A stretch of 64,000 bases of DNA, from contig MSGZ01000039.1 in the NCBI GenBank assembly GCA_001940925.1, forward strand, positions 29,004 to 93,003, in the 5' to 3' direction. Positions within the stretch are counted from its first letter, which is position 1. Each line of letters opens with the position of its first letter. The translations under genes were made by a program, and so were the position numbers. The stretch is from Ruminococcus sp. Phil11 (GTDB taxonomy: Bacteria > Bacillota > Clostridia > Oscillospirales > Ruminococcaceae). This document shows, in pieces, positions 32,821 through 58,951 of the stretch. Under the pieces are notes generated by a model. That model saw nothing but the letters and a program-made list of their open reading frames with translations. It was not told where the DNA came from and ran no database searches.

Positions 32821-34602
32821 TTATGCCGTTTCGGGCTCGGGCATTTCCTCGCTCTGCAGCGCGTCGTAGCCTGTGGAGCCTGTACGGACCTTGATGACCT
32901 GCTCGACCGGGTAGACGAAGATCTTGCCGTCGCCGACCTGACCGGTATAGAGCACCTCGCGGGCGGTCTTGATGACCGTATCGACCGGCACCTTGCAGAC
33001 GACGATCTCCGCCTTGATCTTCGGGTGCAGCGTCGCGCTCATCTTTGCGCCGCGGTAGTAGCTGTTCGACTTCTGGATGCCGCAGCCCATAACATTCGTG
33101 ACGGTCACGCCCGTGATGCCGATGCGCTCCATCGCGTGAATGAAGTGGTGCAGCTTCTCCTGATTGAACACGACCGCGATCTTGGTCATCTTCGGATACT
33201 TCTTGTTGCCGGAATTGTTCGGAACACTGTTTGCAGATGCAGCAGCCGGAACTGTCTCGACCGGGACAGCCTCCTCTGCCGGGACCTTCTGGACGCTCTT
33301 TGCGTCACCCTTGACATAGCCTGCGATCGCAGTCTCGCTCATTGCAGGCATAAAGTCTGCGTAGGAGCTGACCAGACCGTGCTCTGTTGCGTCCATGCCG
33401 ATGATCTCCTCCTGCTCGGATGCGCGCAGGCCGATCGTGTGCTTGATAACGAGAAATACGATTGCCATTGTGGTTGCAGCCCATGCGGCGACAGATGCAA
33501 AGCCGAGCAGCTGTGTGCCGAGCAGCGAGAAGCCGCCGCCGTAGAACAGACCGTTGTAAACATCATTGCCGGGTGCGGAGGTCGTTGCGAACAGACCGAC
33601 TGCCAGCGTGCCCCAGATGCCGTTCATCATGTGGACGGCGACTGCACCGACCGGATCGTCGATATGCAGCACATAGTCGAGGAGCCAGACGCCGAAGCAG
33701 ACGAGCAGACCGGAGACAATTCCGACAATGCCTGCGCCCGCAGCGTCCATGACGTCGCAGCCGGCCGTGATGCCGACCAGACCGGCCAGCGAAGCGTTCA
33801 GGCACATCGAAACATCAGGCTTTCCGTATTTGATCCATGTGAAGATCATGCAGGTGACCGTTGCAACTGCCGGTGCAATTGTAGTCGTCACAAAGACGGA
33901 TGCGAGCTGACCGGTGCTTGTACATGCCGCACCGTTGAAGCCGTACCAGCCGAACCAGAGGATGAAGCAGCCCAGTGCGCCGAGCGTCAGGTTGTGGCCG
34001 GGGATCGCATTCGGCTGAATGCTGCCGTCAGACTTCTTCGAGAACTTGCCGATACGCGGTCCGAGGATCTTTGCGCCGACCAGTGCGGCGATACCGCCGA
34101 CCATGTGGATCGCGCAGGAGCCTGCGAAATCGTGGAAGCCGAGCTGAGCAAGCCAGCCGCCGCCCCAGATCCAGTGCGCTTCGATCGGATAGACCAGTGC
34201 GCTGATGATGCCGGAATAGATGCAGTAGGACAGGAACTTGCAGCGCTCTGCCATTGCGCCGGAAACGATCGTCGCGGCCGTTGCGCAGAACACGAGGTTG
34301 AACACGAAGTTCGACCAGTCAAAGCTTTCGTAAGCGGTAAAGACGTCAAGACCCGGCTTTCCGATCAGGCCGCAGAGGTCCTCACCGAGGAACAGGCCGA
34401 AGCCGATCAGCACGAACATCGGGGTGCCGATACAGAAGTCCATGAGGTTTTTCATGATGATGTTGGCGGCATTCTTGGCGCGGGTAAAGCCCGTTTCCAC
34501 CATGGCGAAGCCCGCCTGCATAAAGAACACGAGTGCTGCGCCGATCAAAAACCATATCGCAAACACTTCACTGTCAACTGCCTGCAGCAATTCATTCTGC
34601 AT
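32821..34602 (-). CDS. amt: Ammonium transporter with C-terminal PII domain
   Basis: A 593-residue fusion. The first about 410 residues form an Amt channel with 11 transmembrane helices, the opening FFMQAGFAMVE, GGGWLAQLGFHDFAGS and a twin-His pore (HDFAG and HMMNG). An Ala/Pro/Val linker (about 440-475) joins a complete PII domain: KMTKIAVVF start, a T-loop with NSYYRGAK and the C-terminal VGDGKIFVYPVEQVIKVRTG ATP/2-oxoglutarate site. In other bacteria a free GlnK blocks Amt; here the sensor is tethered, so uptake would be gated in cis. The leader has two terminators and an ANTAR-like hairpin. Confidence 0.95.
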   Translation of the reverse strand: MQNELLQAVDSEVFAIWFLIGAALVFFMQAGFAMVETGFTRAKNAANIIMKNLMDFCIGTPMFVLIGFGLFLGEDLCGLIGKPGLDVFTAYESFDWSNFVFNLVFCATAATIVSGAMAERCKFLSYCIYSGIISALVYPIEAHWIWGGGWLAQLGFHDFAGSCAIHMVGGIAALVGAKILGPRIGKFSKKSDGSIQPNAIPGHNLTLGALGCFILWFGWYGFNGAACTSTGQLASVFVTTTIAPAVATVTCMIFTWIKYGKPDVSMCLNASLAGLVGITAGCDVMDAAGAGIVGIVSGLLVCFGVWLLDYVLHIDDPVGAVAVHMMNGIWGTLAVGLFATTSAPGNDVYNGLFYGGGFSLLGTQLLGFASVAAWAATTMAIVFLVIKHTIGLRASEQEEIIGMDATEHGLVSSYADFMPAMSETAIAGYVKGDAKSVQKVPAEEAVPVETVPAAASANSVPNNSGNKKYPKMTKIAVVFNQEKLHHFIHAMERIGITGVTVTNVMGCGIQKSNSYYRGAKMSATLHPKIKAEIVVCKVPVDTVIKTAREVLYTGQVGDGKIFVYPVEQVIKVRTGSTGYDALQSEEMPEPETA

Positions 34603-34628: not shown

Positions 34629-34669
34629 AAAAAAGGGTGCATGAGCTGTACTTTCAGCATCATGCACCC
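34629..34669 (-). terminator. Leader terminator 2 of amt-PII
   Basis: GGGTGCATGA pairs with TCATGCACCC and is followed by T6 on the minus strand, 30 bases before the start codon: an attenuator. Its apical part folds as GCTG-AAAGTA-CAGC, another six-base loop with A1 and G4. Confidence 0.88.
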
Positions 34670-34712
34670 CATTGTGCGTTTCATCAGATTTTTTTCAAAG
34701 CGCTTTATAAAC

Positions 34713-34747
34713 GGCAAAAGGCTGCGGAGTTCTGTTTCTCCGCAGCC
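34713..34747 (-). terminator. Leader terminator 1 of amt-PII
   Basis: GGCTGCGGAG pairs with CTCCGCAGCC followed by T4. Its 5' arm shares bases with the upstream hexaloop hairpin at 34743-34756, so the two cannot coexist. Confidence 0.75.
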
Positions 34748-34756
34748 CCTTTGCTG
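34743..34756 (-). promoter_or_regulatory. ANTAR-type hexaloop hairpin in the amt-PII leader
   Basis: On the minus strand CAGC-AAAGGG-GCTG forms a four-pair stem with a six-base loop with A at 1 and G at 4, the features described for ANTAR-protein RNA targets. It overlaps leader terminator 1. Confidence 0.65.
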
Positions 34757-34766
34757 TTCTGGTTGT

Positions 34767-34795
34767 AGTATAGCACATTGTGAAAGATTTGTCAA
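34767..34795 (-). promoter_or_regulatory. Promoter of amt-PII
   Basis: TTGACA (34790-34795) and TATACT (34767-34772) with a 17-base spacer; the transcript starts about 160 bases before the gene. Confidence 0.9.
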
Positions 34796-39476: not shown

Positions 39477-39505
39477 TTGTGATGCGGCAGCGTTTTCCGT
39501 ATAAT
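39477..39505 (+). promoter_or_regulatory. Promoter of the stand-alone receiver gene
   Basis: TTGTGA (39477-39482) and TATAAT (39500-39505) with a 17-base spacer, back to back with the gdhA promoter. Confidence 0.75.
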
Positions 39506-39544
39506 TGGAGATACGAAAATGAAAGATGCAAGGGGTATCTGAAC

Positions 39545-39880
39545 ATGAAAACGATCCATATTTTATCGGAATCCGGAGCGGTCGGAACGCGGCTGCGCAA
39601 TATCCTGTATCAGGCGGGATATGCGGATATCCTGCTGTCCGATCTCTCCGCAATTCCGGAGGAATGGCAGGACAGTATCCTGATGATCTACGCAAAAACG
39701 CGGATCTCAGCCGTCATGCAGAATGCCGCGGACAGCGGATGTCCCGTGGTGATGCTGCTCAATCCGGACTGCTACGCGATGTATCTGGACCGCGCAAGGC
39801 ATCTCGGCATCACGCTGCTGCTGATGCCTGCTCCGCCCTATGCGCTGCTGGATGCCGTGCAGGAAGCTTCTAGTTCCTGA
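39545..39880 (+). CDS. Stand-alone pseudo-receiver protein
   Basis: A 111-residue protein that looks like a response-regulator receiver domain without an output domain. It opens KTIHILSES (beta 1), has the third strand SILMIYAK where the phosphoacceptor Asp should end it (Tyr49/Ala50 here), and ends LLLMPAPPYALLDAV with Met-Pro instead of Lys-Pro. The degenerate pattern resembles the N-terminal part of the ANTAR regulator at 50875. It could be an ANTAR protein that lost its RNA-binding half, or a competing partner. Its 3' end overlaps the convergent AraC-type gene by 11 bases. Confidence 0.7.
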   Translation: MKTIHILSESGAVGTRLRNILYQAGYADILLSDLSAIPEEWQDSILMIYAKTRISAVMQNAADSGCPVVMLLNPDCYAMYLDRARHLGITLLLMPAPPYALLDAVQEASSS

Positions 39881-40631
39881 CCGCAGACGGCGTATGCCCG
39901 GTGTGCTTTTTGAACACGCGCGTGAAATAATCCGGCGTGGAAAAGCCGAGCAGACGGCTGACCTCCAGCACCTTGAACTGTCCTGTTTCGAGCAGCCGTT
40001 TGGCATAGCCGATCTGGAAGCCTTTGTAAAACTCCCCGAAGGTCAAGCCGAATTTGCCTTTGAAGTACCGGCCGAAGTAGTCGCGGTTGAAGCCGAAATA
40101 ATCCGCTGCCAGCTCGACGGTCGCGGTCTGGTGCTCCATTTTCTGCAGGAATGCGCTGAGCTTGTCAAGGACAGGCTGCAGCTCCTCCGCCTGCGGCAAA
40201 GCAGCAAGTGCCTCGGCCGCGGCATTGCGGTATTCCGATTCGATGAGCTGCTCGTGGATCATCGAGCCTGCTCTGGAAAGTGCCGCCAGCAGATCCTCGG
40301 GCGGGATCGGCTCCGAGAGAAAGTCGATCGCGCCGAGCAGGAAGCACTCGCGCATCCGCTGGGAATCGTCCTGCTCACTGATGATGATCGCAGGGATCTT
40401 GCGGTCCTTTCCGCCGGTCAGACGCAGCAGCTTGGCTGCGATGTATTCCGGTGCGCGGTTGATGCAGAGGAGAATGTCAAACTGACGGCTCAGTACCAGA
40501 TTCACCGCGTCATTGAGGCTTGCCGTGTACCTGCCGACTGCAAAATCCGTGTCCTCCAGCATGGAAAAGAGGCTGTTCAGATTTCTGGCGGTACGTTCGC
40601 CGGAATCAGCGACTAAAATCTGCAGCTTCAT
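39870..40631 (-). CDS. AraC-type regulator with degenerate receiver domain
   Basis: A 253-residue regulator. Residues about 1-125 form a receiver-like domain that lacks the phosphoacceptor Asp (FDILLCIN, residues 51-58) and the conserved Lys (SEP at 106-108). A helical linker leads to a C-terminal AraC double helix-turn-helix (about 155-250) with VLEVSRLLGFSTPDYFTRVFKKHTGHTP. The start follows AAAGGAGG. Placed among nitrogen genes, it probably senses something other than phosphorylation. Its own leader carries a terminator and a weak hexaloop hairpin. Confidence 0.85.
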   Translation of the reverse strand: MKLQILVADSGERTARNLNSLFSMLEDTDFAVGRYTASLNDAVNLVLSRQFDILLCINRAPEYIAAKLLRLTGGKDRKIPAIIISEQDDSQRMRECFLLGAIDFLSEPIPPEDLLAALSRAGSMIHEQLIESEYRNAAAEALAALPQAEELQPVLDKLSAFLQKMEHQTATVELAADYFGFNRDYFGRYFKGKFGLTFGEFYKGFQIGYAKRLLETGQFKVLEVSRLLGFSTPDYFTRVFKKHTGHTPSAVRN

Positions 40632-40668: not shown

Positions 40669-40711
40669 TAAAAAGCAGGGCTGTCCCGCCTTTTTTCAAG
40701 CGGAACAGCCC
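40669..40711 (-). terminator. Leader terminator of the AraC-type gene
   Basis: GGGCTGTTCCGC pairs with GCGGGACAGCCC (one mismatch) and is followed by TGCTTTTTAT on the minus strand, about 40 bases before the start codon. Confidence 0.8.
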
Positions 40712-40718
40712 CATTGCT
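40707..40718 (-). promoter_or_regulatory. Weak hexaloop hairpin in the AraC-type leader
   Basis: AGC-AATGGG-GCT on the minus strand gives a six-base loop with A1 and G4 but only three pairs. Its 3' half is the start of the terminator stem. The surrounding AAGCAATGGGGCTG is close to CAGCAAAGGGGCTG in the amt leader. Confidence 0.5.
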
Positions 40719-40731
40719 TTTCCTTGCCCTC

Positions 40732-40760
40732 ATCATAGCACAAACACCTTTGAAAGTCAA
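40732..40760 (-). promoter_or_regulatory. Promoter of the AraC-type gene
   Basis: TTGACT (40755-40760) and TATGAT (40732-40737) with a 17-base spacer. Confidence 0.85.
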
Positions 40761-41265: not shown

Positions 41266-41294
41266 TTGACAAAACTTTCACAATATGCTATAAT
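41266..41294 (+). promoter_or_regulatory. Promoter of the glutamate synthase operon
   Basis: Perfect TTGACA (41266-41271) and TATAAT (41289-41294) with a 17-base spacer. Confidence 0.95.
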
Positions 41295-41308
41295 AGCGGC
41301 AATGATGA

Positions 41309-41328
41309 GATGAACAAAGGCGTTCATC
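41309..41328 (+). promoter_or_regulatory. ANTAR-type hexaloop hairpin, glutamate synthase leader
   Basis: GATGAAC-AAAGGC-GTTCATC: seven pairs and a six-base loop with A1 and G4. Its 3' arm is also the 5' arm of the following terminator, so only one of the two can form. Confidence 0.75.
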
Positions 41329-41371
41329 CGGAACACGGGTTACGTGTCTCCGGGTGGACGCTTCTTTTTTT
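41320..41371 (+). terminator. Leader terminator of the glutamate synthase operon
   Basis: GCGTTCATCCGG pairs with CCGGGTGGACGC over 12 positions (three G-T pairs), then TTCTTTTTTT, 20 bases before the first start codon. Confidence 0.88.
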
Positions 41372-41391: not shown

Positions 41392-42486
41392 ATGATCCCA
41401 CTCGAAGGCCAGGTGCGTATTCCGTCCGGCTGTGCGGTCTCCGCGATGATCTCGCGCGACGGCAGACGCATGAACGGCGAAAGCATCATTCAGAGCATGA
41501 TCCCGATGCATGACCGCTCGAACGGTCTGGGCGGCGGCTTCGCGGCATACGGCATCTACCCCGAATACCGCGATTTCTACGCGCTGCACATCTTCTTCAA
41601 CAGCAAGAGCGCACAGGCTGAATGTATGACGCTCCTGAAGGAGTATTTCGAGATCGTGCAGGACGAGCACATCAAGGTGCGCAAAATGCCGCAGATCACC
41701 GATGAGCCGATCATCCGGCGCGTGTTTGTCTCGCCGATGCAGTCCGTGCTGCGGCATCTGCAGATCGACGACAAGGAGCTTGTCGTGCGCGTGGTCAACC
41801 GCATCAACGCACAGCTCGACGGCAGCTATGTGTTCTCCTGCGGCAAGAATATGGGCGCATTCAAGGCGGTCGGCTTCCCGGAGGACGTCGGCCGGTACTA
41901 CCGCCTCGAGGAATACGAGGCTTACAGCTGGACGGCGCACGGCCGCTATCCGACGAACACCCCCGGCTGGTGGGGCGGCGCGCATCCGTTCTGTATGCTC
42001 GATTATTCGATCGTGCACAACGGTGAGATCTCGTCCTATGACGCGAACCGCCGCTTCATTGAAATGTACGGCTACAAATGTACGCTGCAGACCGATACCG
42101 AGGTCATCACCTATATCGCGGACTATCTGCTCCGCCGGCAGGGCCTGACGCTCGACGAGACCGCTGCGGTCATCGCGGCACCGTTCTGGTCCACGATCGA
42201 GGGCAAGTCCGACGCGGACAAGGAAAAGTACACCTATCTGCGGACGGTATTCCCGAGCCTGCTGGTCACGGGTCCGTTCTCGATCATCCTCGGATTCGAC
42301 GGCGGCCTCATGGCACTGAACGACCGCTTAAAGCTGCGTTCGATGGTCGTCGGCGAGCAGGACGATATGGTCTATATCGCGAGTGAGGAAGCCGCGATCC
42401 GCGTCATGGCACCGGAGATCCAGAAGATCTGGTCGCCTGCCGGCGGCGAGCCGGTCATCGTTCGGGTAAAGGAGGGAGCATTTTGA
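41392..42486 (+). CDS. Glutamate synthase, glutaminase (class II amidotransferase) protein
   Basis: A 364-residue protein corresponding to the N-terminal glutaminase domain of GltB, encoded alone. The presumed nucleophile is Cys14 in IPSGCAVSAM, which implies removal of a short propeptide, as in other class II amidotransferases. YPTNTPGWWGGAHPF and IVHNGEISSYDANR match the glutamine-binding region. It releases ammonia for the FMN subunit encoded next. AGGAGG lies before the ATG at 41392. Confidence 0.92.
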   Translation: MIPLEGQVRIPSGCAVSAMISRDGRRMNGESIIQSMIPMHDRSNGLGGGFAAYGIYPEYRDFYALHIFFNSKSAQAECMTLLKEYFEIVQDEHIKVRKMPQITDEPIIRRVFVSPMQSVLRHLQIDDKELVVRVVNRINAQLDGSYVFSCGKNMGAFKAVGFPEDVGRYYRLEEYEAYSWTAHGRYPTNTPGWWGGAHPFCMLDYSIVHNGEISSYDANRRFIEMYGYKCTLQTDTEVITYIADYLLRRQGLTLDETAAVIAAPFWSTIEGKSDADKEKYTYLRTVFPSLLVTGPFSIILGFDGGLMALNDRLKLRSMVVGEQDDMVYIASEEAAIRVMAPEIQKIWSPAGGEPVIVRVKEGAF

Positions 42487-43979
42487 ATTTCTATCCGGAA
42501 TTTGAGGTCGTCCGCAATGACAGCCGCTGCATCCGCTGCAGAGTCTGCGAACGGCAGTGCGCCAATGAGGTGCATTGGTACGACGAGGACGGCAAGGTCA
42601 TGCTCTCCGATGAGTCCAAGTGCGTGAACTGTCAGCGGTGCGTGACGCTGTGTCCGACCAGAGCACTGAAGATCGTCAAAAGCGACTGCCGTCTGCGCGA
42701 GAATGCAAACTACTCCGATCAGACGATCAAGGAGATTTACCGGCAGGCAGAGACCGGCGGCGTGCTGCTCTCCTCTATGGGCAACCCGAATCCGCTGCCT
42801 GTTTACTGGGACAAAATCCTCATCAATGCTTCGCAGGTCACGAACCCGCCGATCGACCCGCTGCGTGAACCGATGGAAACACGCGTGTTCCTCGGCAAGA
42901 AGCCGGATCACATCACCAGAAATGCGGACGGCTCGCTGGATACCAAGCTTGCCCCGCAGCTGACGCTCAGTATGCCGGTCATGTTCTCGGCAATGAGCTA
43001 CGGTTCGATCAGCTACAATGCACACGCCTCCCTTGCAAGAGCAGCATCCGCGCTCGGCATCTACTACAATACCGGTGAGGGCGGTCTGCACGAGGACTTC
43101 TACAAATACGGCAAGAACACGATCGTTCAGGTCGCGTCCGGACGCTTCGGCGTGCATAAGGATTATCTCGAAGCCGGCGCGGCGATCGAGATCAAAATGG
43201 GACAGGGCGCAAAGCCCGGCATCGGCGGACATCTGCCCGGAACCAAGGCGGTCGGCGACGTCTCCAAGACGCGCATGATCCCCGAGGGCAGCGATGCGAT
43301 CTCCCCTGCCCCGCATCACGATATCTATTCGATCGAGGATCTGCGGCAGCTGGTCTATTCGCTGAAGGAAGCGACCGAATACCGTCTGCCGGTCATCGTC
43401 AAGGTCGCGGCGGTGCACAATATCGCGGCGATCGCGAGCGGCATTGCACGCTCCGGTGCGGATATCATTGCGATCGACGGCTTCCGCGGCGGTACCGGTG
43501 CGGCTCCGACGAGGATCCGCGACAACGTCGGCATTCCGATCGAACTGGCACTCGCGGCGGTCGATAAGCGGCTGAGAGATGAGGGCATCCGCAACAATGT
43601 TTCCATTATCTGCGGCGGCTCGGTGCGTTCGGCGGCGGATGTGGTCAAGGCGATCGCGCTCGGCGCAGATGCCTGCTATATCGCGACGGCGGCATGTCTG
43701 GCAATGGGATGTCATCTCTGCCGGAGCTGCCATACCGGCAAGTGCAACTGGGGCATCGCAACGCAGCGGCCTGATCTGGTCAAGCGTCTGAATCCGGATA
43801 TCGGCTCGCAGCGGCTCATCAATTTAATGGACGCATGGCGGCATGAGATCAAGGAGCTGATGGGCGGCATGGGCATCAATTCGATCGAGGCACTCCGCGG
43901 CAACAGACTGATGCTGCGCGGCGTCGGACTGACCGAAAAAGAGCTTGAGATCCTCGGCATCTCTCATGCGGGCGAATAA
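42483..43979 (+). CDS. Glutamate synthase, ferredoxin-FMN synthase protein
   Basis: A 498-residue protein that condenses ammonia with 2-oxoglutarate. The N terminus has two 4Fe-4S motifs (CIRCRVCERQC and CVNCQRCVTLC), followed by the FMN-binding glutamate synthase domain: AMSYGSISYNAH, NTGEGG, GGTGAAPTRIRD, and a Cys cluster in MGCHLCRSCHTGKC that fits the 3Fe-4S site. The start is read as TTG overlapping the previous stop, with AAAGGAGGGAG upstream. This is the archaeal-type organisation. Confidence 0.93.
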   Translation: MNFYPEFEVVRNDSRCIRCRVCERQCANEVHWYDEDGKVMLSDESKCVNCQRCVTLCPTRALKIVKSDCRLRENANYSDQTIKEIYRQAETGGVLLSSMGNPNPLPVYWDKILINASQVTNPPIDPLREPMETRVFLGKKPDHITRNADGSLDTKLAPQLTLSMPVMFSAMSYGSISYNAHASLARAASALGIYYNTGEGGLHEDFYKYGKNTIVQVASGRFGVHKDYLEAGAAIEIKMGQGAKPGIGGHLPGTKAVGDVSKTRMIPEGSDAISPAPHHDIYSIEDLRQLVYSLKEATEYRLPVIVKVAAVHNIAAIASGIARSGADIIAIDGFRGGTGAAPTRIRDNVGIPIELALAAVDKRLRDEGIRNNVSIICGGSVRSAADVVKAIALGADACYIATAACLAMGCHLCRSCHTGKCNWGIATQRPDLVKRLNPDIGSQRLINLMDAWRHEIKELMGGMGINSIEALRGNRLMLRGVGLTEKELEILGISHAGE

Positions 43980-43995
43980 AGCGGGGGCGTGAAGT

Positions 43996-44439
43996 ATGAA
44001 ACGAATCTATGTGAAAGAGGAATGGTGCCTCGGGTGCCATTTGTGCGAATACAACTGCGCCTTTGCCAATTCCGGCATGACGGACATGGTCAAGGCACTG
44101 CGCGGCAAGACGATCTATCCGCGCATTCAGGTCGAGACGGACGAGAACGGCGTGACCTATGCGGTCTCCTGCCGCCACTGCAATGACCCGCTCTGCGTCA
44201 AGAGCTGCATTGCCGGTGCGCTCTCCAAAAAGGACGGCGTCATCGAGATCGACCACAGCAAATGCGTCGGATGTCTGACCTGCGTGCTCGTCTGTCCCTA
44301 CGGCGCGGTCGTCGAGGACGGCAGCGGTGTCGCGCAGAAATGTGAGCTGTGCATGAAGAATACCTGCGGTGCGCCGGCCTGTGTCAAGGGCTGTCCGAAC
44401 GGCGCGATCGTGTATGAGGATCGGGGTGAGGCAGAATGA
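43996..44439 (+). CDS. Glutamate synthase, polyferredoxin subunit
   Basis: A 147-residue HycB/PhsB-like iron-sulfur protein with about four 4Fe-4S motifs (CLGCHLCEYNC, CRHCNDPLCVKSC, CVGCLTCVLVC and a C-terminal CELC set). It likely relays electrons between the flavoprotein and the synthase protein. Its stop overlaps the following start by 4 bases. Confidence 0.92.
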   Translation: MKRIYVKEEWCLGCHLCEYNCAFANSGMTDMVKALRGKTIYPRIQVETDENGVTYAVSCRHCNDPLCVKSCIAGALSKKDGVIEIDHSKCVGCLTCVLVCPYGAVVEDGSGVAQKCELCMKNTCGAPACVKGCPNGAIVYEDRGEAE

Positions 44440-45674
44440 AGAAATACGTTATCATCGGTAACGGAGTTGCCGCGGCGGGGTGTATCGAAGGCATCCGCTC
44501 CGTGGATGCGGAGGGCAGCATCACGGTCATTTCCGCGGAAAGCTATCCGGTCTACTGCCGCCCGCTGATCTCCTATTATCTCGAAAACAAGACCGATCTG
44601 CAGCGCATGAACTACCGCGGCGAATCGTTCTATGCGGATCACAATGCGACGGTGCTGTACGGCAAAAATGCCGCTGAGATCCGCACGGATGCAAAGCAGG
44701 TCGTTCTGAACGACGGAAGCAGCATTGCATACGATGCACTCTGCTGCTGCACGGGCTCCTCGCCGTTCGTTCCGCCGATGACCGGACTTGATACCGTTGA
44801 AAAAAAGTTCAGCTTTATGACGATCGACGATACGCTTGCACTGGAAAAAGCGATCACGCCGGAGAGCCGCGTGCTCATCATCGGCGCGGGTCTGATCGGC
44901 CTCAAATGCGCAGAGGGTCTGCATGAACGTGTCAGAAGCATCACGGTCTGCGACCTTGCGCCGCGTGTGCTGTCCTCGATCCTCGATGACAGATGCGCCG
45001 CGATGATGCAGAAGCATCTTGAGGATCACGGCATTTCGTTTATTCTCGGGACAAGCGCAAAGGAATTTCAGGGCGGCCATGCCGTTATGCAGAACGGAAC
45101 GGAGGTCGATTTTGACGTTCTGGTGCTGGCGGTCGGCGTGCGCGCCAATACCGCACTTGTGAAGAACGCGGGCGGCAATGTCGGCCGCGGCATTGCGGTC
45201 GATGATGCGTGCAGAACCTCGCTGGCGGGTATCTATGCCGCGGGCGACTGCACCGAATATCACGATATTTCGTCCGATGCGGTCAAGGTCATGGCACTGA
45301 TGCCGAATGCTTATATGCAGGGACGCACCGCCGGCGTCAATATGGCGGGCGGCGAAGCTGCGTTTGACAATGCGATCCCGATGAACTCGATCGGCTTTTT
45401 CGGGTTCCACTGCCATACGGCAGGCTCCCAGCCGGAGGGCTGCGAAATGTTCGAGGAAGCGGACGAAAACCATATCAAGCGGCTGTTCGTCAAGGACGAC
45501 AGACTGACCGGCTTCATGATCCTCGGGACCATGCACCGGACGGGTATTTATACGGCACTGATCCGCAATCAGACGCCGCTGTCGTCGGTCGATTTTGCGC
45601 GGCTGAAGATCGAACCGCAGCTCGCGGCCATGGGCAGCGCATACCGCGATAAAGTATTGAAAGGAGCGGTCTGA
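44436..45674 (+). CDS. Glutamate synthase, FAD/NAD(P)H oxidoreductase subunit
   Basis: A 412-residue flavoprotein of the pyridine-nucleotide disulfide oxidoreductase group (NirB or ferredoxin-reductase type). The FAD site is VIIGNGVAAAGCI at the N terminus, the NAD(P) site VLIIGAGLIGLKCAEGL mid-protein, and the second FAD block is GIYAAGDC. It would feed electrons from NAD(P)H to the polyferredoxin. It directly abuts the next gene (TGA then ATG). Confidence 0.9.
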   Translation: MKKYVIIGNGVAAAGCIEGIRSVDAEGSITVISAESYPVYCRPLISYYLENKTDLQRMNYRGESFYADHNATVLYGKNAAEIRTDAKQVVLNDGSSIAYDALCCCTGSSPFVPPMTGLDTVEKKFSFMTIDDTLALEKAITPESRVLIIGAGLIGLKCAEGLHERVRSITVCDLAPRVLSSILDDRCAAMMQKHLEDHGISFILGTSAKEFQGGHAVMQNGTEVDFDVLVLAVGVRANTALVKNAGGNVGRGIAVDDACRTSLAGIYAAGDCTEYHDISSDAVKVMALMPNAYMQGRTAGVNMAGGEAAFDNAIPMNSIGFFGFHCHTAGSQPEGCEMFEEADENHIKRLFVKDDRLTGFMILGTMHRTGIYTALIRNQTPLSSVDFARLKIEPQLAAMGSAYRDKVLKGAV

Positions 45675-48007
<2,333 letters not shown>

Positions 48008-49640: not shown

Positions 49641-50867
49641 ATGCTGAATGTTTCGCAGCGCGAAGCTGTGGAGCTGATCGAAAGCAGTGATATCAAATTT
49701 GTGCGCCTTGCATTCTGTGATGTATTCGGCGTACAGAAAAACATTTCGGTGCAGGCCGCAGAGCTCGCGCGTGCCTTTGAACAGGGCATCGCGTTCGATG
49801 CGTCGTCGATCGCAGGTTTCCGCGACCCCTCGCACTCCGATCTGTTTCTGTTTCCCGATCCTGCAACCATGACACTGCTGCCGTGGCGGCCTTCCAGAGG
49901 GGGCGTCGCGCGCTTTTTCTGCGAGATCAGAAATCCGGACGGCACACCGTTTTCTGCGGACTGCCGCAGATTTCTTGCCGATACCGAGCAGCTTTTAGCG
50001 GAGCATGATCTCCGCTGCGATATCGGCGCGGAATGCGAATTCTATCTTTTCAAGCTGGACGAAAACGGCAATCCGACCGACACGCCGCTCGACCGTGCCG
50101 GCTATTTCGATATCGCACCGGCGGACGGCGGCGAAAATGTCCGCAGAGAGATCTGCCAGACGCTTGAAGCAATGGGGATGCAGCCGGAACGCTCGCACCA
50201 TGAACAGGGTCCCGGTCAGAATGAAATTGATTTCCGCTACAGCAACGCATTGAGTGCCGCGGATCATGTCGTGACGTTCAAGCAGGTCGTCAGCACGGTC
50301 GCTGCGCGGAACGGGCTCTGGGCTTCGTTTGCACCGAAGCCGATCAAGGGCGAGGCCGGAAACGGTTTCCATATCAACATTTCCCTCACCCGCATTTCGG
50401 ACGGCACGGTGCCGGATGACCCGGTGCTCTGTTCGTTCATGGCAGGACTGCTCGCGCATACGCCGGAGATGACTGCCATTCTGAATCCGCTCGAAGAATC
50501 CTATACAAGGCTCGGCAGAGACAAGGCCCCGAACCGCGTTTCGTGGTCGCCCTCGAACCGTTCGCAGCTGATCCGCATTCCGGCCGCCGACGCATCGCAT
50601 CAGCGCATGGAGCTGCGATCGCCGGATGCCGCCGCAAATCCGTATCTTGCATTTGCGCTCGTGATGCGCGCCGGACTTGACGGCATTCTCCGCGGCATGA
50701 CACCGCCGCCCTCCTGCGACCAGAATCTGCTGGATGTGTCTGCGGAAACCGCAAATCAGTATCCGGATCTGCCCGCCGACCTCAATGCGGCCAAGCGCCT
50801 TGCGGCGGAGAGCAGCTTCATGCAGAACGCACTTCCTGCGCATCTGCTCGTAGCATATACGGAGTGA
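49641..50867 (+). CDS. glnA: Glutamine synthetase, type I family (short)
   Basis: A 408-residue ligase of glutamate and ammonium. Motifs: FCDVFGVQKNI, AFDASSIAGF, the metal/glutamate segment GAECEFYLF, HHEQGPGQNEIDFRY, the ATP-binding GNGFHINISL, and NRSQLIRIPA with RMELRSPDAAANPY. It is about 35 residues shorter than B. subtilis GlnA (444). No adenylylation Tyr motif was seen, consistent with a Firmicutes GSI-alpha-like enzyme. It is followed 7 bases later by the ANTAR regulator, suggesting a functional link. Confidence 0.9.
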   Translation: MLNVSQREAVELIESSDIKFVRLAFCDVFGVQKNISVQAAELARAFEQGIAFDASSIAGFRDPSHSDLFLFPDPATMTLLPWRPSRGGVARFFCEIRNPDGTPFSADCRRFLADTEQLLAEHDLRCDIGAECEFYLFKLDENGNPTDTPLDRAGYFDIAPADGGENVRREICQTLEAMGMQPERSHHEQGPGQNEIDFRYSNALSAADHVVTFKQVVSTVAARNGLWASFAPKPIKGEAGNGFHINISLTRISDGTVPDDPVLCSFMAGLLAHTPEMTAILNPLEESYTRLGRDKAPNRVSWSPSNRSQLIRIPAADASHQRMELRSPDAAANPYLAFALVMRAGLDGILRGMTPPPSCDQNLLDVSAETANQYPDLPADLNAAKRLAAESSFMQNALPAHLLVAYTE

Positions 50868-50874
50868 CGGCACC

Positions 50875-51465
50875 ATGCTGACACGCTTTGAGCAGAAAGA
50901 GGTTTTCGTCATTTCCTCGAATGACAATTTTCACCGCTATGTGCGGGAGAATCTGCCCGACGGCGACTTTACCGTTTCCGGCGGCGCGGATTCCTGCACG
51001 GAAGCACGCCAAAAAATGATGGGCAATTCCTGCGCGGTCGTCCTCATCAATATCCCGCTGACCGATGAATGCGGCACGGAGCTTGCAAGCGATCTCGCGG
51101 AGAATACGCCTTCTTCGGTCGTGGCCGTCGTCAAGAACGAGCAGGAGCCTGAATTCCGGCAGTCGCTGGAACCGGCAGGCGTTTTTGTCCTCGGCAGGCC
51201 GTTCCCGCATACCACGTTTCATCAGGTGCTCTATGACGCTGCATCTGCATACGCGCGGACACAGATCATATCGCAGGAAAACCAGCGTCTGCAGATCAAG
51301 CTGATCGACCTGCGGATCGTCAACCGTGCGAAGTATGCGCTGATCCGGTATCTCGGCATGACCGAGGAGCAGGCGCATAAATATATCGAGCAGCAGGCGA
51401 TGAATCAGCGCATCTCCAAACGGAAGGCTGCGGAAAATATCCTAAAAACATACGAGAATCATTGA
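50875..51465 (+). CDS. ANTAR-domain antiterminator with pseudo-receiver
   Basis: A 196-residue regulator. Residues about 8-125 form a receiver fold in which the phosphoacceptor position is Asn59 (VVLINIPL) and the conserved Lys is Arg108 (GRPF), so control by phosphorylation is unlikely. A coiled-coil (about 126-148) leads to the ANTAR domain (about 140-193), with RAKYALIRYLGMTEEQAHKY and the AMNQRISKRKAAENIL half. ANTAR proteins bind paired hexaloop hairpins and prevent termination. Four leaders nearby carry such hairpins. Co-transcribed with glnA. Confidence 0.92.
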   Translation: MLTRFEQKEVFVISSNDNFHRYVRENLPDGDFTVSGGADSCTEARQKMMGNSCAVVLINIPLTDECGTELASDLAENTPSSVVAVVKNEQEPEFRQSLEPAGVFVLGRPFPHTTFHQVLYDAASAYARTQIISQENQRLQIKLIDLRIVNRAKYALIRYLGMTEEQAHKYIEQQAMNQRISKRKAAENILKTYENH

Positions 51466-51512
51466 GGATTCATGGGCAAAGCGTCAAACCTTGTGAAATT
51501 CCTGTCAAAGTC

Positions 51513-51541
51513 TTGACAAGCGAAGAAAAATGTGCTATCAT
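51513..51541 (+). promoter_or_regulatory. Promoter of glnN
   Basis: TTGACA (51513-51518) and TATCAT (51536-51541) with a 17-base spacer; the leader is about 105 bases. Confidence 0.9.
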
Positions 51542-51552
51542 GTAACACAGAA

Positions 51553-51606
51553 AACAGCAACGGTGCTGCTTCGGGAAGATTCCCGAAATGCCGTTGCTGT
51601 TTTTTT
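51553..51606 (+). terminator. Leader terminator of glnN
   Basis: AACAGCAACGG (51553-51563) pairs with CCGTTGCTGTT (51591-51601) and is followed by T6, 47 bases before the start codon. Confidence 0.93.
51555..51587 (+). promoter_or_regulatory. Two-hairpin ANTAR target in the glnN leader
   Basis: Hairpin 1 is CAGC-AACGGT-GCTG (51555-51568; loop with A1 and G4). Hairpin 2, one base later, is TTCGGG-AAGATT-CCCGAA (51570-51587; six-base loop with A1, though G is at position 3). Hairpin 1 uses the bases of the terminator's 5' arm, and hairpin 2 lies in its loop, so hairpin 1 and terminator are mutually exclusive. Confidence 0.75.
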
Positions 51607-51652
51607 GTTGATCGGAAAAAGCGGGTTACGCCCGTAGAAAGGATGTATTTTT

Positions 51653-53722
<2,070 letters not shown>

Positions 53723-53795: not shown

Positions 53796-54899
53796 ATGAA
53801 CGGTACGGAGATGAAGCCGGGCTGTCTGGTGCTGGAAAACGGCATGGTTTTTCACGGGATGCGGCTCGGAGCGCAGAAGAATGTGACTGCGGAAATCGTA
53901 TTTGCAACCGGCATGAACGGGTATCTGGAAACGCTGACCGACCCGAGCTATTACGGGCAGGCGGTCGTGCAGACCTTCCCGCTGATCGGAAATTACGGCG
54001 TGATCCCGGCGGATTTTGAATCGCGGAAGCCGTTTTTATCGGCTTATATTGTCACGGAAATGTGCGATGCACCTTCCAATTTCAGATGCGAAGGACAGCT
54101 TGCAGAATGGCTGGCCGCGCAGCAGATCCCGGCACTGACCGGCGTTGATACGCGGACACTGACAAGAGTGCTCCGGGATCACGGCACGATGAACGGCATG
54201 ATCTGCGATTCGCCCGATGAAGCGGATATTGAGAAGATACGCGCATACCGCGTGACGGACGCCGTAAATAACACGACCTGCGATCAGGCGTATACGCTCG
54301 GCGATGCCGATGCAGAGCGGCATATTGCGCTGCTCGATTTCGGCGCAAAGGCGAACATCGCCAGAGAGCTTGTGAAGCGCGGCTGCAAAGTGACCGTGCT
54401 GCCGGCATATACAAAATGTGAGGAAATTGCAGCACTGGCTCCCGACGGCATCATGCTTTCCAACGGCGCGGGCGACCCGGCCGACAATCCGGAGATTATT
54501 GCGGAGCTGCAGAAGATCATGACGCTGAACATCCCGACCATGGCGATCTGCCTCGGGCATCAGCTGCTGGCACTGGCCAACGGCATCCCGACCGCAAAGC
54601 TGAAATTCGGTCACCGCGGCGCGAATCAGCCGGTGCTGAATCTCCTGACAAAACGCATGGCTGTCACGACGCAGAATCACGGCTATCAGGTGCAGTATGA
54701 TCCGGATGACGCGCACTGCCGTGAGACCGCCGAGCTGCTGTACGTGAACCTCAACGACAACACCTGCGAGGGACTGCGCTACAAAAACATCCCGGCGATG
54801 TCGGTGCAGTTCCACCCGGAGGCCTGTGCAGGTCCGCAGGATACGGCGTTCATTTTCGATGAGTTCATGCAGATGACGGAGGTGCAGAAATGCCGCTGA
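53796..54899 (+). CDS. carA: Carbamoyl-phosphate synthase small subunit
   Basis: A 367-residue glutaminase subunit that delivers ammonia to CarB. The N-terminal domain has ATGMNGYLETLTDPSYYGQ; the GATase domain has the nucleophile in AICLGHQLLALA, then NHGYQV and VQFHPEA. The ATG at 53796 follows AGGAGTGAGG. It overlaps carB by 10 bases. Confidence 0.96.
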   Translation: MNGTEMKPGCLVLENGMVFHGMRLGAQKNVTAEIVFATGMNGYLETLTDPSYYGQAVVQTFPLIGNYGVIPADFESRKPFLSAYIVTEMCDAPSNFRCEGQLAEWLAAQQIPALTGVDTRTLTRVLRDHGTMNGMICDSPDEADIEKIRAYRVTDAVNNTTCDQAYTLGDADAERHIALLDFGAKANIARELVKRGCKVTVLPAYTKCEEIAALAPDGIMLSNGAGDPADNPEIIAELQKIMTLNIPTMAICLGHQLLALANGIPTAKLKFGHRGANQPVLNLLTKRMAVTTQNHGYQVQYDPDDAHCRETAELLYVNLNDNTCEGLRYKNIPAMSVQFHPEACAGPQDTAFIFDEFMQMTEVQKCR

Positions 54900-57800
54900 A
54901 TCGTGATATTCATAAGGTACTTGTCATCGGCTCCGGCCCGATCGTCATCGGACAGGCAGCGGAGTTTGACTACTCCGGCACACAGGCCTGCCGCGCACTC
55001 AAAGAGGACGGCATCGAGGTCGTGCTCGTCAATTCCAACCCGGCGACGATCATGACCGACAGCCAGATCGCCGATAAAATCTACATGGAGCCGCTGAAAT
55101 CAGAGGTCATCAAGCGCATCTGCCTGAAGGAACAGCCCGACAGCATTCTCTCGGGTCTCGGCGGACAAACCGGCCTGAACCTCTGCGCGGAGCTCGCCGA
55201 AAGCGGATTCCTCGCGGCGCACGGCATCAAGCTGCTCGGCGCAAATCCGGAGACGATCGCCAAAGCCGAGGACAGAAAGCTGTTCAAGGAGACAATGGAC
55301 AGCATCCATCAGCCGTGCATCCCGTCCGGCATTGCGGAGGACATGGACACCGCACGGCAGATCGCGGCGGAGATCGGCTATCCGGTCATTATTCGGCCGG
55401 CCTTTACGCTCGGCGGAACCGGCGGCGGCATTGCCGGAATGCCCGAAGAATTTGACAATATTGCGGAGAACGGCCTGCGTCTTTCTCCGATTCACCAGAT
55501 CCTTGTGGAACGCTGCATCGCGGGATGGAAGGAGATCGAATTTGAGATCGTGCGCGATGCCGACGGCAACAAGATCACGGTCTGCTCCATGGAGAATCTT
55601 GATCCGGTCGGCATCCATACCGGCGATTCGATCGTCATTGCACCGGCGGTCACGCTCTCGGACAAGGAGTATCAGATGCTGCGTACCGCTGCGCTTAAAA
55701 TCGCGGAGGTACTGAAAATAGAAGGCGGCTGCAACTGCCAGTTCGCACTGAATCCGGATTCGTTTGAATACGCGGTCATCGAGGTCAATCCGCGTGTCTC
55801 GCGTTCTTCGGCACTCGCGTCGAAAGCGACCGGCTATCCGATCGCAAAGGTCGCCGCGAAGATCGCAGTCGGCTACCGGCTGTACGAGATTGCGAATAAA
55901 GTCACCGGCAAAACGTCCGCGGCTTTTGAGCCTGCATTGGACTATGTTGCGGTCAAGATGCCGAAGTTCCCGTTCGAGAAATTTGCGGGCGCATCGCACC
56001 GGCTCGGCACACAGATGAAGGCGACCGGCGAGGTCATGGCGATTTCCGATACCTTTGAATCTGCGCTGCTGAAGGCACTCCGCGGCGCAGAGGTCAAGCA
56101 CAGCGCGCTGCTCGTCCGCGACATGCGCAGCGTTCCGGACGACAAGCTCCGGGAGCATCTGATCCACGCGGATGATATCCGGCTGTTTGCGGTCGCCGAG
56201 GCACTCCGCCGCGGCATGACAGTCGATGAGATCCGCGCATTATCGAAGATCGACGCATGGTTTTTGAGCAAGATCGAAAAGCTGATCCGCTGCGAATGCA
56301 GTCTGGAAGCCGACCCGCTGACGGATAAACTTTACCGGTCGGCAAAGCGTTTCGGCTATCCGGATGCGGCGATCCATGCGATCTCCGGCCATGATCTGCC
56401 GGAAAAGCGCATCCGTCCGGTCTACCGCATGGTCGATACCTGCGCCGGTGAATTTGCAGCAGAAACGCCGTATTTCTACGGCGTGTACCAGCCGGACGCG
56501 ATGCCGGAAGCGAACGAAGCTGCGCATTTTCTGGCCGGCGCACAGCATCAGACGGTCGTCGTGCTCGGCAGCGGCCCGATCCGCATCGGACAGGGCATCG
56601 AGTTCGACTATTCGGCTGTCCATTGCGTGCAGGTGCTGAAACATGCAGGCTATGAGGTCGTGCTCATCAACAACAACCCGGAGACGGTCTCGACCGATTT
56701 CGACACCGCCGACCGCCTGTATTTTGAGCCGCTGACGCCCGAGGATGTGCTCTCGATCCTTGCGCTGGAACAGCCCGTCGGCGTCGTGACCGCATTCGGC
56801 GGTCAGACCGCGATCCGGCTTGCGCGCACGATCGAAGAAGCCGGCTATAAGCTGCTCGGCGCGACCGCGGACAGCATCGACCTTGCGGAGGACCGCGAAC
56901 GCTTTGACGCGCTGCTCGAATCGCTGCAGATCGAGCGTCCGCGCGGCTGCACGGTCAACACGCTGGACGAAGCCGCAGAGGCCGTCAATGAGCTCGGACT
57001 GCCGGTTCTGGTGCGTCCGTCCTACGTGCTCGGCGGCCAGAATATGAACATCGCATTTGAGAAAAGCGACGTAGCTGCGTTCATGTCGAACATTCTTGCG
57101 GACGGCATCGACAACCCCGTGCTGATCGACCAGTACATCCGCGGCACGGAGATCGAGGTCGATGCGATCTGCGACGGCAGAGACATCCTCATCCCCGGCA
57201 TCATGGAGCATATCGAGCGCACGGGCGTGCATTCCGGCGATTCGATCGCGATCTGCCCGCCGGTGCACATCGACGACGACATGCGGAAGAAGATCCTCAC
57301 GGATACGAAGAAAATCTGTCTCGGACTGCACGCGGTCGGCCTCATCAATCTGCAGTATATCGTCAAGGGGCAGTCGCTCTATGTGATCGAGGTCAACCCG
57401 CGCGCATCGCGGACGGTGCCGTTCATGAGCAAGCTGACCGGCCTGCCGCTCTGCGACTGCGCCATGCGCGTTTGCCTCGGAGAAAAACTCAGCGAAATGG
57501 AATACGGCACAGGCTACTACAAGACCCCGCCGTTTACCGCGGTCAAGGTGCCGGTGTTCTCGTTCCAGAAGATCGGCGGCGAATCGCAGCTCGGCCCCGA
57601 AATGAAATCGACCGGCGAGGTCATCGGCATCGGCAAGACGCTGACCGAGGCACTCTATAAGGGACTTCGCGCGGCGGGCTACCGGCTTGAGGACACCGGC
57701 AAAAACAAAAACGGCGTCCTGCTGACTGTCTGCAATGCGGATAAGCCGGATATCGTCGAAATTGCGCGTAAATTCGCAAAGCTCGGCTTCGTGCTCTATG

Positions 57801-58951
57801 CGACCGGCGGCACCGCGGCGGCACTCAGCCGCGCAGGACTTGCGGTGCATACGCTCAGCAAGCTGCACGCCGGCGATACCGAAACATTTACGCTCATGGA
57901 GAACGGCACGATCCGCTATATCGTCTCCACGGACGCAAATGCCCGCATGGCTGCCCGTGACGGCGCGAAGATCCGCAAAAAGGCGGTCGAGCTCGGCATC
58001 CCCTGCCTGACCTGCACCGATACCGCGGCGGCAGTTGCGAACTGCCTGCATACCGGCTACCGGGATTCCAATGTGGAGCTGATGAATATGAACGAACTCA
58101 GAACAGCCAAGCGGCGCATCCCGTTTGTGAAGATGCACGGCTGCGGCAATGATTATATCTATGTCAACTGCATGGAAAAGCGCATAGATGCGCCGGAATC
58201 GCTCAGCGTGCAGCTGTCCGACCGGCACTTCGGCATCGGCGGCGACGGGCTTGTCCTGATCGAACGCTCCGACTGCGCGGATGCAAGGATGCGGATGTTC
58301 AATCTCGACGGCAGCGAGGGCAACATGTGCGGCAACGCGATCCGCTGCGTCGCAAAGTATCTTTACGACAACGGCATCTGCCCGAAAAAGGAGATCGTCA
58401 TCGAGACGAAAAGCGGCCTGCGGACGGTCAGCGTCACAACACAGAACGGCGTTGTGACGCGTGCGGCGGTCGATATGGGCAAGGCGATCTTTGATCCGAA
58501 GCGGATCCCGGTGCGGTTTGAGGGCTCCGAAATGATCGCCGAACCGCTGACCGTTGCCGGAACGGAATATACCGTCACCTGTGTGTCCATGGGCAATCCG
58601 CACTGTGTCGTGTTCGGAGACAATCCGGAGCTTCTTGACCTTGCGGCGATCGGCCCGGAATTTGAGCATCATCCGGCATTCCCGGAGCAGGTCAATACGG
58701 AATTTGTGCAGGTGATTGACGACCGCACGCTGCGGATGCGCGTCTGGGAACGCGGCTCCGGCGAGACCATGGCCTGCGGTACGGGTGCCTGCGCGACCGT
58801 CGCGGCGGCGGTGAAAAACGGCTATTGTCAGCCGGATACCGACGTCACGGTGCACCTGAACGGCGGTGATCTGGTCATCCGCTATACTGAAGATACGGTC
58901 ATGATGACCGGCGAGGCCGTGCTGATCTTCAGCGGCGAGATTGAGGTATAA
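54890..58951 (+). CDS. carB-dapF: Fusion: carbamoyl-phosphate synthase large subunit - diaminopimelate epimerase
   Basis: One uninterrupted frame of 1353 residues. About 1-1074 is a full-length CarB with two ATP-grasp halves (VLVIGSGPIVIGQAAEFDYSG and VVLGSGPIRIGQGIEFDYS) and a C-terminal allosteric domain. About 1075-1353 is a full-length DapF (start IPFVKMHGCGNDYIYVN) with both catalytic Cys motifs (EGNMCGNAIR and MACGTGACA). The junction is only a few residues (NELRTAKRR). GGAG at 58075 lies 9 bases before an in-frame ATG at 58088, so a free DapF could also be made. dapL and lysA follow, which supports a working epimerase. Confidence 0.93.
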   Translation: MPLNRDIHKVLVIGSGPIVIGQAAEFDYSGTQACRALKEDGIEVVLVNSNPATIMTDSQIADKIYMEPLKSEVIKRICLKEQPDSILSGLGGQTGLNLCAELAESGFLAAHGIKLLGANPETIAKAEDRKLFKETMDSIHQPCIPSGIAEDMDTARQIAAEIGYPVIIRPAFTLGGTGGGIAGMPEEFDNIAENGLRLSPIHQILVERCIAGWKEIEFEIVRDADGNKITVCSMENLDPVGIHTGDSIVIAPAVTLSDKEYQMLRTAALKIAEVLKIEGGCNCQFALNPDSFEYAVIEVNPRVSRSSALASKATGYPIAKVAAKIAVGYRLYEIANKVTGKTSAAFEPALDYVAVKMPKFPFEKFAGASHRLGTQMKATGEVMAISDTFESALLKALRGAEVKHSALLVRDMRSVPDDKLREHLIHADDIRLFAVAEALRRGMTVDEIRALSKIDAWFLSKIEKLIRCECSLEADPLTDKLYRSAKRFGYPDAAIHAISGHDLPEKRIRPVYRMVDTCAGEFAAETPYFYGVYQPDAMPEANEAAHFLAGAQHQTVVVLGSGPIRIGQGIEFDYSAVHCVQVLKHAGYEVVLINNNPETVSTDFDTADRLYFEPLTPEDVLSILALEQPVGVVTAFGGQTAIRLARTIEEAGYKLLGATADSIDLAEDRERFDALLESLQIERPRGCTVNTLDEAAEAVNELGLPVLVRPSYVLGGQNMNIAFEKSDVAAFMSNILADGIDNPVLIDQYIRGTEIEVDAICDGRDILIPGIMEHIERTGVHSGDSIAICPPVHIDDDMRKKILTDTKKICLGLHAVGLINLQYIVKGQSLYVIEVNPRASRTVPFMSKLTGLPLCDCAMRVCLGEKLSEMEYGTGYYKTPPFTAVKVPVFSFQKIGGESQLGPEMKSTGEVIGIGKTLTEALYKGLRAAGYRLEDTGKNKNGVLLTVCNADKPDIVEIARKFAKLGFVLYATGGTAAALSRAGLAVHTLSKLHAGDTETFTLMENGTIRYIVSTDANARMAARDGAKIRKKAVELGIPCLTCTDTAAAVANCLHTGYRDSNVELMNMNELRTAKRRIPFVKMHGCGNDYIYVNCMEKRIDAPESLSVQLSDRHFGIGGDGLVLIERSDCADARMRMFNLDGSEGNMCGNAIRCVAKYLYDNGICPKKEIVIETKSGLRTVSVTTQNGVVTRAAVDMGKAIFDPKRIPVRFEGSEMIAEPLTVAGTEYTVTCVSMGNPHCVVFGDNPELLDLAAIGPEFEHHPAFPEQVNTEFVQVIDDRTLRMRVWERGSGETMACGTGACATVAAAVKNGYCQPDTDVTVHLNGGDLVIRYTEDTVMMTGEAVLIFSGEIEV

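Follow-up and report, generated by a model that had tools for sequence, protein, structure and literature searches.

What decides whether transcription proceeds into glnN, the type III glutamine synthetase gene at 51653-53722 (+ strand; Pfam GSIII_N, 271 bits) of the window, as we call the whole 64,000-nt stretch of Ruminococcus sp. Phil11 DNA analysed here? The gene is preceded by a promoter, two hairpins and an intrinsic terminator, and upstream of these by the gene for an ANTAR protein (50875-51465, + strand). A preliminary description had read the leader as an ANTAR-controlled terminator switch with two hexaloop hairpins; the mutual exclusion of the first hairpin and the terminator, and the conservation of that hairpin, support such a switch, but not its two-hexaloop form. 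Comparison of leader sequences makes it probable that the glnN leader is an attenuator controlled by this ANTAR protein via a single hexaloop.

The glnN leader and its conservation

The sigma70-type glnN promoter (51513-51541, + strand; promoter and terminator calls are rule-based throughout) joins TTGACA at 51513-51518 to TATCAT at 51536-51541 across a 17-nt spacer, with TG preceding the -10. At 11 of 12 consensus matches it is strong, though short of the perfection first ascribed to it. Hairpin P1, CAGC-AACGGT-GCTG, lies at 51555-51568 (+ strand) as originally described; it is an ANTAR-type hexaloop hairpin, a putative protein target and antiterminator, and agrees, compared by eye, with the eut hexaloop consensus AGCAANGRRGCUY (PMC3369931, in excerpt) at 11 of 13 positions. 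P1 begins 13 nt past the -10, so that a transcript from this promoter contains no second hexaloop upstream of it. Nested inside the terminator is P2, TTCGGG-AAGATT-CCCGAA (51570-51587, + strand), whose stem had likewise been recognized; its supposed six-base loop is narrowed in the predicted fold by an A-U closure that leaves AGAT, and the G of AAGATT is misplaced, as had been remarked from the outset.

The strong intrinsic terminator (51552-51606, + strand) re-uses P1 in the manner first claimed: its 5' arm, AAACAGCAACGG at 51552-51563, covers the 5' arm and loop of P1 and pairs with CCGTTGCTGTTT at 51591-51602, and its T-run comprises seven T (51600-51606). The segment 51545-51612 folds at -33.1 kcal/mol (z = -5.94), a value equalled by none of 200 shuffles. 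P1 and the terminator are mutually exclusive in folding, P2 fits both states, and forcing P1 to form is predicted to cost 15.0 kcal/mol relative to the terminator fold. The P1 stem of the window has only 4 bp, against 6-7 bp in 15 of 19 leaders of the genus. AACGGT loops, which the window shares with seven other leaders of the genus, allow an A1-U6 pair, and the window's P1, folded alone from its own sequence, is predicted to form a tetraloop with this pair closed.

How well is this arrangement kept in related genomes? Relatives of the ANTAR protein were found in 36 of 61 searched genomes, and 30 loci were examined, of which 19 (L002-L020, the window's included, all from one genus) have glnN downstream; a further glnN locus with only 175 nt of upstream sequence, in which P1 is absent, was left out (L048, genome G001). 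Promoter, P1, nested hairpin and terminator are kept in all 19 leaders, which settles in favour of P1 the conservation check that the preliminary description had proposed. P1 occurs there in three variants (in 10, 8 and 1 leaders), all of the form CAGC-AAYGGY-GCTG, and its 3' arm GCTG is invariant even though the terminator does not use it. In five of the 19 the 3' arm of the terminator mismatches loop A2, and the loop A is nevertheless retained. Across 24 distinct P1 hairpins the closing C-G is present in all and 94.2% of cells are paired, a percentage biased upward because the rows were preselected as hairpin-forming. Four of five pairs show changes on both sides, and the covariation score was matched by none of 500 shuffles, with the caveat that leaders from related genomes are not independent.

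Recurrence of the hairpin at nitrogen genes

The window has C-AANGRN-G hairpins that overlap a terminator in three further places, on which the preliminary description is silent: before gltB, before amtB, where two stand in tandem, and before a REC-AraC regulator gene. The gltB leader (41266-41371, + strand) has a promoter at 41266-41294 that matches the consensus at 12 of 12 positions, a P1, GATGAAC-AAAGGC-GTTCATC (41309-41328), with a stem unlike that of glnN, and a terminator (41320-41371) that uses the loop and 3' arm of P1. It precedes the gene for a glutamate synthase glutaminase domain (41392-42486, + strand; named from its translation), the first of a split gltB set: glutamate synthase is apparently spread over five consecutive ORFs (41392-46397) for the glutaminase, FMN/ferredoxin part, ferredoxin, FAD oxidoreductase and GXGXG part, read from translations and confirmed by Pfam for GXGXG. 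The hairpin is present at 28 of 29 gltB loci, the only candidate at the remaining one (L091) lying far from the promoter; one more locus (L081) was dropped because its contig begins inside the gene.

The gene for the ammonium transporter AmtB (32821-34602, - strand; 593 aa; Pfam PF00909, 408 bits) carries two units of this kind at a spacing of about 80 nt. Attenuator 1 (34716-34795, - strand) consists of a promoter at 34795-34767, P1a, CAGC-AAAGGG-GCTG, at 34756-34743 and a terminator at 34747-34716, and attenuator 2 (34629-34677, - strand) of P1b, GCAC-AATGGG-GTGC, at 34677-34664 and a terminator at 34669-34629. Both P1a and P1b occur in all 15 amtB loci examined from the genus. Among amtB loci more generally (24 of 30 examined), the hairpin is present in 19 of the 24: 17 have it with a promoter, L274 has it without one, and L259 has both hairpins. 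One locus (L267, genome G043) shows three AANGRN hexaloop hairpins in series 259, 186 and 114 nt upstream of its amtB match, spaced by about 73 nt; these are candidate attenuators, seen as hairpins alone. As a separate observation, the C-terminus of the window's AmtB reads in translation like PII (GlnB), so that transporter and nitrogen sensor seem fused.

The REC-AraC gene (39870-40631, - strand; domains named from translation) is divergent from gltB, and its leader (40670-40760, - strand) contains a promoter at 40760-40732, a 3-bp P1, AGC-AATGGG-GCT, at 40718-40707 and a terminator at 40711-40670. This leader scores 29.0 bits, near background, with R1, a model of promoter plus P1, and was accepted on context. 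The hairpin occurs in this position at five of 19 gltB loci, among them that of the window, and in four of the five it was read by eye; three others have an amtB-like leader there, and in 11 the hairpin was not found. The encoded protein, like the ANTAR protein discussed below, seems by eye to lack a phospho-acceptor aspartate, and a small ORF in the interval between gdhA and the REC-AraC gene (39479-39880, + strand) translates to a receiver-like protein without output domain. The second GSIII gene of the genome lacks a C-AANGRN-G leader.

Of 2703 hexaloop hairpins in the window with stems of at least 4 bp, nine have the form C-AANGRN-G and 36 are overlapped by a terminator-like stem, and three of these 36 are C-AANGRN-G (hypergeometric P = 1.7e-4), a count by a rule that misses amtB attenuator 1, with its short T-run, and the 3-bp REC-AraC hairpin.

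Two further features of the window deserve mention in their own right. The promoter spacers of gltB (41276-41283, + strand) and amtB (34785-34778, - strand) contain the motif TTTCACAA, which occurs again at 51498-51491 (- strand), 14 nt before the -35 of glnN, and at this last position is largely conserved across the genus; the window holds five copies against 1.48 expected, and two of 100 shuffles reach five. It is possibly an operator for a DNA-binding regulator and hence a second layer of control. Downstream of glnN, a 1353-aa ORF (54890-58951) reads in translation as CarB with a DapF-like domain continuing in the same frame, either a fusion or the result of a missing stop.

Applied to the order at E<=1e-5, R1 found matches in 65 of 247 genomes. 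ANTAR genes are present in 63 of these 65 (counted by eye), the exceptions being G052 and G259, compared with 164 of all 247 (Fisher 2.1e-11); because the genomes on which R1 was trained overlap the tested set, six of them were also removed, leaving 57 of 59 (1.9e-10). At this strict cut-off 101 of the 164 ANTAR genomes have no R1 match. The first long ORF downstream, named from translation at 29 of these loci, is gltB in 17, GSIII in eight (two of them read off frame), asnA in two (L161, L169), gdhA in one (L167) and terminase-like in one (L166), the last probably a false match. At L161, in genome G052 where no ANTAR gene was detected, TCAGC-AAAGGC-GCTGA stands before the asnA-like gene, and the T-run of the terminator is weak. 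Among 20 other GSIII leaders that were fetched, a C-AANGRN-G hairpin is present in six and absent from 14. R1 did not serve as a genome-wide regulon finder. It gives 143 matches in this genome. The leaders used to train it take the first three places; the fourth match (L116, 43 bits) was rejected as an attenuator for its loop AACAGG and absent terminator, and of 17 loci read out of 30, only the REC-AraC leader (L122) was accepted beyond the training leaders. There may be further targets among the 143.

Over all the loci fetched, 164 leader rows combine a TTGAC-type promoter, a C-AANGRN-G hairpin with a stem of at least 4 bp and an overlapping terminator by a loose rule, whereas 16 control loop patterns gave 0-2 rows each. 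The rows were de-duplicated by exact 65-nt sequence, so that close relatives count separately (the loci L240 and L250 twice each), and 125 of them come from loci not fetched by R1. When R1-fetched loci were excluded and the loop was left free, 103 of 125 promoter-proximal, terminator-overlapped hexaloops proved to be C-AANGRN-G. In 156 of the 164 rows only 4-15 nt separate the -10 from the start of the hairpin, which therefore lies at the RNA's 5' end or close to it and leaves no room for a preceding hexaloop.

One hexaloop, two, or none

Why would an ANTAR protein make do with one loop? In the literature, dual hexaloops are described as a requirement, the second being the one that overlaps the terminator, and antitermination in the EutV system needs both (PMC3369936); excerpts of PMC3369931 and PMC8934654 say the same of dual hexaloops, and an Actinobacteria survey likewise requires two stems (PMC8164766, in excerpt). 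The 2022 study, as excerpted, treats one hexaloop as the minimal binding site, allows single sites where the time limit set by the transcribing polymerase is absent, and leaves open why the dimer needs two (PMC8934654). Measured against the canonical target (Ramesh 2012), the glnN leader has the first A1/G4 hexaloop but not a second with a short linker, and its terminator overlaps P1 and encloses P2, unlike the EutV scheme, in which it overlaps the second hairpin.

The best-surviving alternative, still an unlikely one, is that the leader is a canonical dual-hairpin target whose P2 is degenerate yet used, the protein contacting first P1 and afterwards P2, in the way suggested for EutV. By eye, all 19 leaders of the genus allow a P2 stem, and 13 of the 14 P2 loops that are hexaloops begin with A. 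Against this, only one of those 14 has G4 and the other five of the 19 loops are not hexaloops at all, so that an A1 and G4 loop is found in P1 in 19 of 19 leaders and in P2 in one; the nested loops of gltB and amtB attenuator 1 are 5 and 8 nt. Because the P2 loop is not conserved, the two-hairpin reading of the preliminary description fails, and P2 was rejected as a second ANTAR loop on this drift within the genus. A scan of the 164 rows for a second C-AANGRN-G hairpin (at least 4 bp, 0-25 nt downstream, this side only) recovered L240 and L250 alone, although some A1/G4 hexaloop with at least 3 bp stands nearby in 19 rows, four of which are those of L240 and L250. These two loci, from Ruminococcus sp., demonstrate that the scan can detect the dual form: their nested P2 is a good AANGRN hexaloop three bases past the first. 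The leader precedes amtB in L250, and L240 has the same leader with its gene cut by the end of the locus. There, at about 3734-3825, the terminator shares sequence with the first hairpin and has the second inside it, an arrangement opposite to that of the eut leaders. The dual form thus exists in this protein family, and P2 of the glnN leader could be its relic.

Could the conserved loop have nothing to do with an ANTAR protein? A slightly less probable alternative holds that attenuation responds to a small molecule, the ribosome or another RNA-binding protein, AANGG being kept mainly for terminator pairing. The loop bases do lie in the 5' arm of the terminator in the gltB and amtB leaders as well, and A-runs can pair with the U-run, so part of the AANGG conservation could serve that pairing. 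However, the P1 arm outside the terminator is also kept or covaries, and two types of leader use opposite arms of P1 and yet have the loop in common. That loop equals the ANTAR consensus, the leader is linked with ANTAR genes across genomes, and Rfam gives the glnN leader no match at gathering scores, only four weak ones.

No terminator was listed on the + strand from the ANTAR stop to the glnN promoter (51466-51512), so the glnA-ANTAR transcript should continue into the glnN attenuator, which would couple the two; that the terminator is constitutive, mainly ends this transcript and has P1 only incidentally is very improbable, given its position downstream of the strong glnN promoter and the recurrence of the layout at unrelated loci.

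ANTAR control through the single hexaloop P1 is well supported by these comparisons, and the leaders seem to form a family that departs from the two-hexaloop ANTAR attenuators of the literature; no report of single-hexaloop attenuators was found among the openly licensed papers searched.

The ANTAR protein and the proposed switch

The ANTAR protein (196 aa) ends at a stop at 51465, 47 nt before the -35 at 51513, a distance given correctly from the start. It comprises a degenerate receiver (Response_reg, 22.7 bits, below the cut-off of 30.2), a coiled coil and a C-terminal ANTAR domain (aa 138-190; 47.4 bits, cut-off 27.3), and is the only ANTAR match in the genome, which is 94.6% complete. Its predicted structure (pLDDT 91.8) matches RNA-bound EutV (6ww6) over the full length (TM 0.74/0.76), and the top match by E-value in a structure search is Rv1626, another ANTAR protein. 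Compared by eye, and with numbering that differs by two residues between paper and chain, the RNA-contact residues K149 (K153 here), E160 (E164), M172 (M176), N173 and R175 (R179) of EutV are kept, K143 and K147 are Arg, and four are changed: Y164 to His (His168), R142 to Leu, R168 to Glu and R177 to Ser. In EutV, Tyr164 stacks on loop G4 (PMC8934654, in excerpt). Pseudomonas aeruginosa AmiR, like the window protein a pseudo-receiver ANTAR protein, also has His at this position, and its fold is similar (TM 0.62-0.64). Unlike EutV, the window protein lacks the phospho-acceptor aspartate, having Asn58 at that position, which among 20 aligned proteins, the window's included, is Asn in 17, Asp in two and Cys in one.

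Directly 5' of the ANTAR gene, with a gap of 7 nt, lies glnA (GSI; 49641-50867, + strand; TIGR00653, 347.7 bits, below the model cut-off of 429). At 73 of 80 named loci a glnA precedes the ANTAR gene in the same orientation at a distance of no more than about 350 nt, the NitR-type position, and in three of the other seven the upstream DNA covers less than 0.5 kb. Among named relatives, the closest are uncultured Oscillospiraceae, for example from sheep omasum and horse faeces; cultured carriers of the system include Sedimentibacter saalensis (L200) and Yanshouia hominis (L189). The frequent glnA neighbour, a point of difference from AmiR/AmiC, and the missing phospho-aspartate point to control via protein contact, perhaps with GlnA, which is perhaps the sensor partner of the ANTAR protein.

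How would the switch work? P1 would form very near the transcript's 5' end, and the active ANTAR protein would bind its loop, C-AANGRN-G, and keep P1 closed, withholding its 5' arm and loop from the terminator so that polymerase reads into glnN. With the protein inactive, the terminator would displace P1 and transcription would stop at 51600-51606. P2 would be a spacer hairpin inside the terminator, compatible with both states, and together with spacer sequence it may buy time before the 3' arm of the terminator is made. The same protein would control gltB, amtB, with two attenuators in series that would sharpen the response, and the REC-AraC gene, an ammonium-assimilation regulon. We infer the binding to P1 from the leaders and proteins compared here, and by analogy the protein would turn these genes on, with nitrogen limitation as the presumed signal and the neighbouring GlnA as a possible route of sensing.

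In known cases AmiC captures AmiR, and feedback-inhibited glutamine synthetase captures TnrA in Bacillus. It is conceivable, if rather doubtful, that GlnA, which shares an operon with the ANTAR protein, is the sensor here in a similar way, capturing the pseudo-receiver when glutamine is plentiful and freeing it when nitrogen is short to open glnN, gltB and amtB, with single-hexaloop attenuators used clade-wide.

These systems resemble EutV/EutW and the eut leaders of Enterococcus faecalis in their receiver-ANTAR fold, A1/G4 hexaloop and hairpin overlapping an intrinsic terminator, but differ in having one hexaloop at the transcript start, itself the predicted antiterminator, and an unconserved nested loop. 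They are like NitR, an ANTAR protein of Clostridium saccharobutylicum that is reported to raise GS/GOGAT genes under nitrogen limitation (Stutz et al. 2007 as cited in PMC6316151, in excerpt), in linking an ANTAR protein with ammonium assimilation; here GSIII, amtB and the REC-AraC gene also carry the leader. The features defining the NitR type follow that citing paper, and here an action on GS/GOGAT is suggested by the leaders. In Desulfotomaculum, the predicted ANTAR regulons likewise count glutamate synthase among their nitrogen-gene targets, with several targets per genome, but the model used there demands two hexaloops (PMC3369931, in excerpt).

A clade-wide single-hexaloop variant of ANTAR antitermination thus seems, on comparative evidence, to govern ammonium assimilation. 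Dual-hexaloop searches are predicted to overlook most such sites. A natural one-hexaloop family, with some tandem members and a few two-loop relatives, would make the question of why the dimer needs two directly testable, and, if true, our reading would account for the control of ammonium assimilation in many uncultured and some cultured Clostridia.
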